Assembly (NCBI RefSeq): GCF_000317535.1
Contig: NC_019757.1
Span: 4,739,501-4,803,500, forward strand
From: Cylindrospermum stagnale PCC 7417
Lineage (GTDB): Bacteria > Cyanobacteriota > Cyanobacteriia > Cyanobacteriales > Nostocaceae
DNA length: 64,000 nucleotides
Reading direction: 5' to 3'
A program made the translations under genes and the position numbers. A model generated the notes under the pieces. That model was not told the DNA's origin and did no database searches. It saw nothing but the letters and a program-made list of their open reading frames with translations. Below, piece after piece: positions 41,443 to 44,770 of this stretch; positions within the stretch are counted from its first letter, which is position 1, and each line of letters opens with the position of its first letter.

Positions 41443-42045
41443 TTACTCCACAGAACCCCAAAACCAGTTGCCTACAGCACCGGGTTCCTTTTCAGCTAGA
41501 AATTCTCTCTTAGCAGAAACAAACTCTTTTTTAGAGAGGATGCCGTCCTGATCGATATCAAGCTTGGAGAAGACAAAAGCTGATTTTTCAGCATCTAGGT
41601 CAAACACACTGAAGAAGAGACGATGCTCTTGTTGTGATATATGACCATCACTGTCTAAATCAACAATGTCAAACAAAGTCTCTATTAAAGGGTCGTTGTA
41701 ATCTGGATTTGAAACCGTTTTCTCTATGCCCTGACAAAATTCTTCGGAACTTACCTTACCATCTCCATCCAAATCCGCTTTAGACCAAAAATTCTCCCAA
41801 ACATGAAGCCACTTAAACAACAAATCTTTGTGAATATCTGAACCAAGTTCTGCGCTACGGATCTTGGCGAACCTCTCAGCAAAAATCTCAGCATCTTCTT
41901 TCCCAATGAAGCCTGAATTATCGGCATCCAAACAGTAAAAGTGATGCAGTAACTTTTTTCTATGATATTCGCTTAACAATGCTTTTCCCTTTTGCTTACC
42001 AAACACACCTACATTATCACATCCGTACGTAGTCCATAACCACAA
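41443..42045 (-). CDS. Four-EF-hand calcium-binding protein
   Basis: A soluble protein of 200 residues with four EF-hand loops. They are DADNSGFIGKED (40-51), DLDGDGKVSSEE (91-102), DLDSDGHISQQE (129-140) and DIDQDGILSKKE (163-174). All four keep the acidic positions 1, 3, 5 and 12 needed for Ca2+, with Ser at position 5 and Asp at 12 in the first. The arrangement resembles calerythrin/sarcoplasmic Ca-binding proteins, which buffer or sense calcium. No signal peptide, so it is probably cytoplasmic. The exact start is uncertain because the first 20 residues are not conserved-looking. Confidence 0.88.
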   Translation of the reverse strand: MWLWTTYGCDNVGVFGKQKGKALLSEYHRKKLLHHFYCLDADNSGFIGKEDAEIFAERFAKIRSAELGSDIHKDLLFKWLHVWENFWSKADLDGDGKVSSEEFCQGIEKTVSNPDYNDPLIETLFDIVDLDSDGHISQQEHRLFFSVFDLDAEKSAFVFSKLDIDQDGILSKKEFVSAKREFLAEKEPGAVGNWFWGSVE

Positions 42046-42150: not shown

Positions 42151-44770
42151 TTAAGAAGTTGGTTCTTGACTTGGGAACATACACTTATCAGAATCACAGC
42201 CACTTGGGCCAGCTTCTGATAATTCGCCGGAGTCGTAGCGGCTTAAGACAGCACAGAAATCATCTGTTTTGCGTCGCACTAAAACCTCTTCAGATAAAGT
42301 GTCATAGGTTGATTTATCGATTGGTTCAAAGGGCAAACGGGGGAATGATTGCAAATCGTCAAACCGGGCTAAAAGGGCGGCGGAAATATATCCTTCATCG
42401 TTTTGGATGGCTTCGTAAATTCGCTTTCCTAATGGTTCTATTTCTTCAGAACGGAGTTCTAAAGTAGCTGAGGTGTTGTGAGTGACGTAGTAACCCTGAA
42501 CTTGAAGGATAAAATCCAATTGAGCTAAAACTGAGAACTGAGAAACATCAATTTGATCGCATCCGTCTAAATCAGCCCAAGATACAGCTACGGGGATTTC
42601 TACTAACCATTCGGTAACGCGGGAATCAAAGGGATCATTGAGCAAATTACCCTGTTCGTCTTTGTCAGATTGGGAGGGGATGACGTTGTAACCGTAGTCT
42701 ATGCAAGCTAAGGCTACTGGGTCATTTTTGCGGAAGGTGATGCGACGCAGAAATCTTTGGGCTTTGGGGGGATGCCATCCGGGGCTAGCACCTGTTAATA
42801 AGGACTTTGTACCGCTTGGTTGGACGGTGGTGCAGCGATTGGGACGTTTGAGATGATGGCGATCGCAATATTCCCACACAACCCGATGCACTGTATCTTT
42901 CCAGAAGCTGAGATATTTCTGTTCTTTTTGCTTAAAAGCCAGTCCTTGGAGGGTTTCCGGTCTACCTTCTGACCACCAACGCAACCAATCAACACCAAAT
43001 GCATGAACAAAGAAATCAAATAAACCAGTGAAGGAAACCCCGACAATTGGGTCTAATTCACGGCTGTATTGATAGCGCGGTTCTAGAAATTTGTGATTTA
43101 AAAGTGCTGCTACAGACAGCGCCCCAGCAGTGAAAGCTTCTTCTTGTTCTTTGTAGTTATTTGGGTCGAGTTGGTTTAAGTGAACTTCTGAAAGATTACA
43201 GTGAAAATCGCTACCAGTAATTTCCTGATTGTTATCCTAAAGGCTTTTTATCCTCTAGTTCTACTGCTTGATCATTCGCAGTAGTTCCGACTATATTTTC
43301 TACTAAAGAGCGAAATTAAAATTTAGTAGCCGGGGACTCGTGGAGCCGTTGAAAAACGGGGGTTAAACCCAGATTATATTCTTTTTACATTTCAAAATGA
43401 ATCAGAGAATTTTGAATTGTAAACAGTTTCACTCTCTAGTCTGTACGGTGTCAAAGGTGCTTTAATTCCTCTGATTACCTCGGTATTCCCAATCGCAGGG
43501 TTCACCGATTTTCCCCGGTGTTTAACGTGAGGCAAAATTACTTACCACACGGATTTAAAGCATATCGCTGCAAACGATGCTCTAATTCATTTGCATCTAA
43601 ATTAGGGTAGCGTTCTTGTAACCACTGTTTTCCTTGACCTTGGTCATAAGCTTGCAAAAAGTCAGTTTTTAATGCTGGTGTTAATAGCAAGTCAGCGTTG
43701 GCTCTAGCTACAGCTTCACCAGCCCATTGAATCGCACCTTCACCGCTGTAATATTGTTTGCGGACAGCTTCAATTGATTCTTCTAGTGTTGGCTTGCGGT
43801 GAAATACTCTGGTGTGGTTGGCCATTCTCAAAGCATCACGCTCTGGGTCAATGCGCCAGTTGCCATTTTCATCCTGCTGCCATAAATTATCTTTAGCGGT
43901 GGCTGCTTGTTGATCGTCAGCAGCGAACTGTCTCATCCCGGCACTTCTTCGGATATTGCCTGCAACAATTGTTACAGCGGCTTGATCAATTAACAAACAG
44001 CATTCAACTGAAGTTAATTGTCGCCCTACAGCTTTATTGAGGATGGATGCACAACGCTCATACAGTCCGGGCAATTTCACCGGATTTGCCATGCCACCAA
44101 AGCCTTTGAGTGTTTCCCCGGCTTGGCGCACGTCGCTGATATCAATGCATACATTAACTTCACCAGCAAAGCGTTCATCGGTGGAGATTTCCAAAAGGGT
44201 TTGATAAGATTTTACCCAGCCTTCTCGGCTATCTCCAACATGAATAGTAACGCTGTTGCCTTCTATATCGGTTTCTGTAAATTCACGACGCTGTTGCTTA
44301 GGAGTACTACCAATTTCACCTTTTACGCTAATATGCAGATGATTGCGGATGGGAGGCAGTTGGTTAATATATTGCGGTTCTATGACTGCTCCTGTACCAC
44401 AGCCCATCATTGCCAAGTCCATCATCAACCCGAAGGCTTTCCAGTCTTCTAGGTTGGTGGAGGTGCAATTGTAAGCCCCGGAAAAGTTTTTGGGCTTGGC
44501 TAACCAATCTGTGCCGCCGACCCATAACCAGCGCCCACTGGGTAAGGATCTCATGTTGCGTTGCATCTTTTCCAGGATGGCAACTTCTTCGCGGCTGAGT
44601 TTTCCCAACTCGATGATACCTTGGAGAGTGCGATCGCACACCTCATCCCATGATTCTCTCAGCCCTGCCTGTGTACGGCGGCTATATGTTCTAAAAAATA
44701 CAGGATTGGCAGCTGGGGCAGTTTCTGGGAACTTTGCACTCTGACGTTTTCTTTCAAGCTCTCGAACCAT
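42151..44770 (-). CDS. nrdJ: Adenosylcobalamin-dependent (class II) ribonucleotide reductase, interrupted by group I intron
   Basis: It reduces ribonucleotides to deoxyribonucleotides with a B12-generated thiyl radical. Exon 1 is 44770-43544 (409 codons, ending ALNPCG). Exon 2 is 43224-42151 (357 codons plus stop, beginning EITGSDFHCNLSEV). Joined, they give 766 residues, close to monomeric RTPR-type enzymes (about 740). Motifs: GRWLWVGG, YNCTSTNLEDW, GCGTG, restored NPCGEI with the radical cysteine, PSGTKSLLTGASPGWHPP, and the C-terminal redox pair in GCDSDKC. Without splicing, exon 1 would end after one extra Lys. Neighbouring cobB makes part of the cofactor pathway, though it is 13 kb away. 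Confidence 0.92.
43225..43543 (-). ncRNA. Group I self-splicing intron in nrdJ
   Basis: A 319-base intron lies between the GGT (Gly) and GAA (Glu) codons of NPCGEI. The upstream exon ends in U and the intron ends in G, as group I requires. The guide GCCTCACG (intron 11-18, 43533-43526) pairs with exon end CGTGTGGT, giving P1 with a U-G at the splice site and one mismatch. GTAATTTT (3-10) pairs with the 3' exon start GAAATTAC, giving P10. P2 is CACCG/CGGTG. The R element CCGTACAGACTA (43448-43437) and S element ATATAGTCGG (43296-43287) form P7. CTACTAAA/TTTAGTAG fits P8 and CTACTGC/GCAGTAG fits P9. No endonuclease ORF. Confidence 0.92.

Follow-up and report, generated by a model that had tools for sequence, protein, structure and literature searches.

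An insertion in the active-site codons of nrdJ from Cylindrospermum stagnale PCC 7417, read as a group I intron

Can a ribonucleotide reductase gene that is interrupted in its active-site codons still be a working gene? The question is raised by nrdJ of Cylindrospermum stagnale PCC 7417, located in the 64,000-nucleotide stretch of DNA analysed here (the window), where an open reading frame on the minus strand (44770-43538) yields 410 amino acids with the C-terminal end ...LNPCGK-stop, and the next listed frame of the same protein opens with a TTG start at 42984, 554 bases further. This agrees with the initial annotation, which had described a gene looking broken, with a 410-codon frame and a second frame some 550 bases on. 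Both halves exceed the cut-off of TIGR02505 (positions 16-378 and 379-723), the model for adenosylcobalamin-dependent ribonucleoside-triphosphate reductase, and between them 319 nt of the minus strand, 43543-43225, interrupt nrdJ between Gly and Glu (NPCG|EI). The boundaries first proposed for this segment proved exact to the base, and so did the claim that its removal restores the frame: GGT (43546-43544) as the last codon of the 5' exon then meets GAA (from 43224) as the first codon of the 3' exon, giving on translation one stop-free frame of 766 residues. The insert itself contains eight in-frame stops and, in the open reading frame list, no frame of 60 amino acids or more. That it is a group I intron whose excision restores NPCGEI is held here with high confidence; its features are collected in Table 1. 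Beside nrdJ lies a gene for a 200-aa protein with EF-hand calcium-binding motifs (41443-42045, minus strand; Pfam EF-hand).

Table 1. Coordinates of nrdJ and of the putative intron elements in the window, with the evidence for each
Feature	Position	Strand	Evidence
nrdJ 5' exon, residues 1-409, end ...LNPCG	43544..44770	-	TIGR02505 16-378, 361 bits; translation
Insertion read as group I intron, 319 nt	43225..43543	-	frame restored, same-site homologues, covariation, RF00028 22.6 bits
nrdJ 3' exon, 357 aa, start EITGSDF	42154..43224	-	TIGR02505 379-723, 387.8 bits
nrdJ stop codon	42151-42153	-	
In-frame stop TAA, intron codon 2	43538..43540	-	stop in first three intron codons, 43/43 carriers
P1 5' strand in exon, CGTGTGGT	43544..43551	-	CCGTGTGGT in 43/43 carriers, 7/28 non-carriers with uninterrupted 5' site
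Internal guide sequence GCCTCACG, P1 3' strand	43526..43533	-	7/8 P1 positions pair
P10 intron strand AATTTT	43534..43539	-	pairs with exon GAAATT; positions 1 and 4 covary with exon wobble bases
P10 exon strand GAAATT, codons Glu-Ile	43219..43224	-	helix survey
P3 5' strand CCGGGG	43513..43518	-	partner 43330-43335; 262/264 cells paired
P3 3' strand CCCCGG	43330..43335	-	helix survey
P4 5' strand TCGGT	43504..43508	-	partner 43480-43484; 220/220 cells paired, 3' strand picked by best pairing
P4 3' strand ACCGA	43480..43484	-	helix survey
P7 5' strand / R element GACTA	43437..43441	-	partner TAGTC 43289-43293; strands located by motif
P7 3' strand / S element TAGTC	43289..43293	-	helix survey
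P8 hairpin, CTACTAAA / TTTAGTAG	43300..43329	-	255/264 cells paired, six pairs counted
P9 hairpin, CTACTGC / GCAGTAG	43261..43284	-	292/308 cells paired
P9.1 hairpin, CTAGAGG / CCTTTAG	43237..43258	-	306/308 cells paired; motif AACTARRGGATAAARAGCC also in viral contigs

The class assignment owes little to existing models. At the Rfam gathering score, a curated threshold and not a biological feature, no family matches anywhere in the window; cmscan aligns the intron over the whole of RF00028 (Intron_gpI), yet at 22.6 bits (E 0.0015 in a 601-base search) against a gathering score of 50; the alignment starts inside the exon and, on the 3' side, stops before it reaches the splice site. Because this score is so low, the case for a group I intron rests on comparison. 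The comparison set comprises the best 80 of 563 relatives found by a search with the 3' exon protein, a sample that therefore leans to near kin, in which 43 loci (the carriers) have a non-coding insertion at the same site, 22 are empty and 15 have inteins within 30 bp; some of the 80 come from the same genomes as those with G numbers (L062/G099, L026/G012), and the two sets are not summed. None of the 13 carriers scanned, of the 43, matches RF00028 at the gathering score. The intron region of the window folds better than 100 of 100 shuffles (z -3.96).

Ten helices were located in 44 introns (the window and the 43 carriers), including five introns longer than 400 nt that are absent from one intron alignment. 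In the window P1 is formed by CGUGUGGU with GCCUCACG, which match apart from a single U-U and have U.G at the splice site; P10 is formed by GAAAUU of the 3' exon with AAUUUU of the intron. Beyond the counts in Table 1, pairing holds in 307/352 cells of P1, 132/132 each of P5 and P6, 220/220 of P7 and 248/264 of P10; the counts for P4, P5, P7 and P9.1 lean towards pairing, since motif or best pairing helped to locate these helices. The P1 and P10 pairings and the R/S (P7), P8 and P9 elements of the initial annotation are thus all recovered. Seven of the eight P1 positions pair, one of these in 43 of 44 rows, while the eighth is U-U and the splice site U.G in all 44; P1 is so nearly invariant that covariation cannot test it. 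P7 occurs as GACTA/TAGTC in 13 introns, GCGTA/TACGC in 25, GCATA/TATGC in five and GAGTA/TACTC in one. Two-sided pair changes were observed in P3, P4, P5, P6, P7, P8, P9 and P10, and P3 to P9 and P10 each include at least one two-sided changing pair with a degree of pairing unreached by 1000 shuffles, which ignore kinship. On the nrdJ tree, nine such pairs (P3, two in P4, P5, P6, two in P7, P8 and P9) represent two to four independent events each, with none opposed and all compensated in every pairing except for P5, one of whose three events goes uncompensated in 26 of 200 pairings. The last intron base is G in 43/43 carriers and in the window, whose intron has the complete P3-P8 core with the P7 (R/S) pseudoknot. 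Introns of subgroup IA, which are phage-like, have extra hairpins P7.1/P7.2 between the P7 5' strand and the P3 3' strand; the window intron has about 100 nt with predicted hairpins in this region, and on this anatomy it may putatively be labelled IA. A covariance-model search had been proposed as a check, with the lack of a significant group I score as grounds for doubt: a match to RF00028 is present and falls below the gathering score, so that Rfam partly bears out the doubt, which is outweighed by the covariation within the family.

Dependence of the cell on splicing, also claimed at the outset, is supported by the rest of the genome (7.61 Mb, rated 99.99% complete), where TIGR02505 matches only the two halves of the interrupted gene, giving no second nrdJ, and PF02867, PF13597 and PF00268 match nothing, so that no class I or III reductase was found. 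In the control Synechococcus elongatus TIGR02505 matches and PF02867 does not, so the silence of PF02867 on the window enzyme is expected. Since no other reductase was found, splicing very probably works, as far as sequence can tell, and with it a gene that looks broken; were the intron overlooked, the only reductase gene found here would be annotated as a pseudogene, a misannotation that could recur in related genomes.

The alternative that survives best, though still very unlikely, is a split gene, the 410-aa and C-terminal polypeptides of which assemble into active enzyme with no RNA splicing; both frames are open over their length, and excerpts of PMC3653736 describe a split nrdA in Aeromonas phage Aeh1 that stays functional, but the first ATG, GTG or TTG of the 3' frame lies 80 codons in (42984), leaving a possible rare ATT start at codon 2, and the insertion has the fold of a group I core with covarying helices, P1 and P10 pairing to the exons. 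Slightly less credible again is a dead relic that no longer splices in a cell living on another reductase: the failure to find another reductase in a genome rated so nearly complete, the two open exons and the paired core helices all weigh against it, set against a poor Rfam score and a window copy devoid of an endonuclease gene. An intein or another element in place of a group I intron is exceedingly improbable, for while NP|C and FH|C inteins interrupt nrdJ at 15 loci among the best 80 of 563 relatives, the window insert is a third of the length of the nrdJ inteins (about 970-1150 nt) and one of its eight in-frame stops is its second codon.

For the reading as a spliced group I intron, a course of events can be proposed from the structure. 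In the transcript the guide GCCUCACG would pair with CGUGUGGU at the 5' exon end to form P1, and the stretch before the guide with GAAAUU of the 3' exon to form P10. P7 of group I introns binds the guanosine cofactor, and by what holds for this class the cofactor would be bound at P7 of the P3-P8 core, after which two transesterifications would join ...UGU GGU to GAA AUU..., restoring NPCGEI. In 43/43 carriers a stop is found among the first three intron codons; in most of them it overlaps the P10 strand, so the two may not be conserved independently. A 2014 review (PMC3984707) gives the view that stops in many group I introns aid folding and splicing by stalling ribosomes, and the stop just inside the present intron may likewise keep ribosomes off the ribozyme until it is spliced. 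Spread was probably by homing in endonuclease-carrying forms such as those of five relatives, and persistence in this lineage would follow from the need for any loss to be exact.

The exon codons that flank the intron are themselves associated with it: CCG TGT GGT precedes the intron in 43/43 carriers versus 7/28 non-carriers with an uninterrupted 5' site, nine loci with the NP|C intein being left out. Across 15 independent pairs on the tree, presence of the intron and exon target agree in a mean of 11.7, show no difference in 3.3 and oppose in none (median p 0.0005). Such a link is expected alike from P1 constraint, from target choice by a homing enzyme and from exon co-conversion. In P10 (n=44), the Ile third base and its guide base are T with A in 21 introns, C with G in 19 and other in four (one a G.U), and the Glu third base and its partner are A with T in 38, G with C in five and other in one. 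On the tree the Ile wobble has three exon changes and two guide changes, with one of three independent pairs agreeing and two showing no change, and the Glu position is a single event; the P10 covariation therefore rests on few events. The exon codon-guide link offers a direct test of whether an active-site intron limits synonymous change in an essential gene.

In the cyanobacterial nrdJ setting the intron is common, contrary to the rarity noted in the initial annotation: beside the 43 carriers among the best 80 of 563 relatives, each of these 43 having the guide sequence GCCTCAC, a DNA comparison with the intron region gives matches in 113 of the family's 217 genomes, that of the window among them, and in 33 of 56 genera, some matches possibly not being introns since the query held 32 exon bases and the weakest lie near E 0.001. 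The nrdJ tree implies 19 changes in intron presence, of which starred branches force at least 17. In the nrdJ comparison the row closest to the window is that of Cylindrospermum sp. NIES-4074 (87% over 1416 columns), which carries not the intron but the FH|C intein; the intron tree places the window copy with the GACTA type of other genera. A one-clade constraint for Scytonemataceae, applied as a tree test of horizontal transfer, was not rejected (AU p 0.197), which leaves the patchy distribution, more than conflict between trees, as the support for transfer. Arrays of NsiR1 small RNA copies were observed downstream of nrdJ at two Dolichospermum loci (L062, 6870-8137; L077, 8347-9282).

A single 30-bp stretch of this gene has insertion sites for three self-splicing elements: intein a enters ahead of the catalytic Cys, the intron follows 6 bp later, and another 24 bp separate the intron from intein b. 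Among the best 80 of 563 relatives, eight loci have an intein at NP|C, six have one at FH|C, and one further locus has both (L084; intein loci L070-L083 and L025-L102). Intron and either intein are never found together in the 80 loci (hypergeometric 0.0005 and 0.003, kinship ignored); against exclusion, L016, outside the 80, carries the intron and the FH|C intein (intein b) together. Elsewhere in nrdJ, an intein-like open-frame insertion of 391-407 aa is present at residues 275/276 in 17 of the 80 loci (L023, L035, L039, L099 and others), several of which also carry the group I intron, and near residues 124/125 three loci (L044, L066, L096) have insertions of about 2.4-2.5 kb with an ORF of about 600 aa and in-frame stops, that of L096 including a group II intron end by Rfam.

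No homing endonuclease is encoded in the window intron by open reading frames and translation, and no transposase or TnpB frame of an IStron or insertion sequence, there being no ORF of at least 60 aa. Some relatives are larger: introns of 1156 nt at L034 and L099 have a 322-aa ORF, close relatives of which are found in introns of 1153 and 1159 nt (L136 and L137, the source genome of L137 being rated 38% contaminated). This ORF matches Pfam NUMOD3 over and Phage_endo_I under the cut-off, as well as PHROG families named endonuclease, Holliday junction resolvase and homing endonuclease, while the best match to PDB endonuclease I chains (E 0.066) is not significant; from these matches it may be a PD-(D/E)XK-like enzyme. 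The reading frame extends from P8 almost to the 3' splice site, overlapping P7, P9 and P9.1 of the core. A GIY-YIG ORF occupies a different place in the intron of L052, shortly after R, and the 506-nt intron of L062 holds a decayed piece of the 322-aa ORF. Matches to the latter occur in 12 of 291 genomes of the order, one at full length (G305) and several others covering only its end, which overlaps the intron core; no viral relative was found, and none in the genome of the window in a search made without a positive control. With endonuclease-bearing, decayed, endonuclease-less and empty states coexisting, a single gene allows the homing cycle to be traced.

The 3' motif AACTARRGGATAAARAGCC, present once in the window, recurs in at least 120 stretches of viral contigs (IMG/VR, L149-L268), with 125 matches, 104 of them distinct, among the matches listed. 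Of the 104, 87 have an S motif and more than 400 nt upstream, the other 17 being left out. A matching P7 5' strand was found within 400 nt in 50 of these 87 versus 2.8 in swapped controls, and within 1500 nt in 68 versus 14.0, by patterns widened after the sequence context had been seen; the narrow pattern gave 3/62 partners against a control mean of 3.1. At the gathering score, RF00028 has no match over the motif in the 18 viral stretches scanned of the at least 120; it is found in two of the 18 (L172 and L153), overlapping the motif in neither, the match in L153 covering a possible R of the same intron. The shared viral 3' domain suggests a broad class of group I introns, and both this sharing with many viral introns and the escape of the tested relatives from Rfam were among the less expected results. 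A tentative proposal, to which we would give somewhat less than an even chance, is that a large virus-borne class of group I introns, with a shared P9-P9.1 end and interchangeable P7 pairs and mostly missed by the Rfam gathering score, has the nrdJ intron as its branch in cyanobacteria; that in Nostocales this intron and two inteins compete for one active-site target of 30 bp; and that P1 and P10 hold the choice of synonymous codons, CCG TGT GGT | GAR ATY, at the catalytic site of an essential enzyme. For the class suggested by the viral matches a separate covariance model would be worthwhile.

Among described systems, the intron in the reductase gene of Nostoc punctiforme PCC 73102 is of the same gene, host group and group I type as that of the window. 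By the title of Meng, Zhang and Liu 2007 (J Bacteriol 189:2150), it reportedly holds an insertion sequence, and the window copy and the homologous 288-nt intron at the same codons in N. punctiforme NIES-2108 (L048) are too short for one. A 2025 review (PMC12702839) credits the PCC 73102 intron to Meng 2007, and the 2014 review states, on the authority of Meng 2007 and Fujisawa 2010, that some nrdE genes of cyanobacteria contain group I introns (PMC3984707), in agreement with the initial remark that a few have been described in cyanobacterial reductases; RNRdb reports more than 100 curated group I introns in reductase entries (PMC2795772). Novelty had been made to depend on the insertion site, which, going by the NIES-2108 intron at the same position and the 2025 review, is probably the published one of PCC 73102 (PMC12702839). 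No account of the exact site, the codon link or the endonuclease forms was found in the literature searched, most subscription papers being outside its scope.

Two other group I introns of the same genome, at G000:C2:2717452-2717719 and 3459794-3459979 (L001, L002), interrupt tRNA-like genes, one of them tRNA-Met(cat) by ARAGORN with introns allowed, and score 77.5 and 58.8 bits with RF00028, whereas the nrdJ intron is absent from the results of that search. The viral introns of group I type (L149-L268) have the P9.1 motif in common with the nrdJ intron and mostly an S motif with a matching P7 5' strand, but sit in other genes, with 3' exons that by eye are dUTPase- and DNA polymerase-like, and L178 is the sole viral locus with a weak nrdJ match, far from the motif. 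The NP|C and FH|C inteins of nrdJ, two examples of which were scanned and have LAGLIDADG-type domains, share the same 30 bp and the self-splicing habit with the intron, but are spliced as protein.
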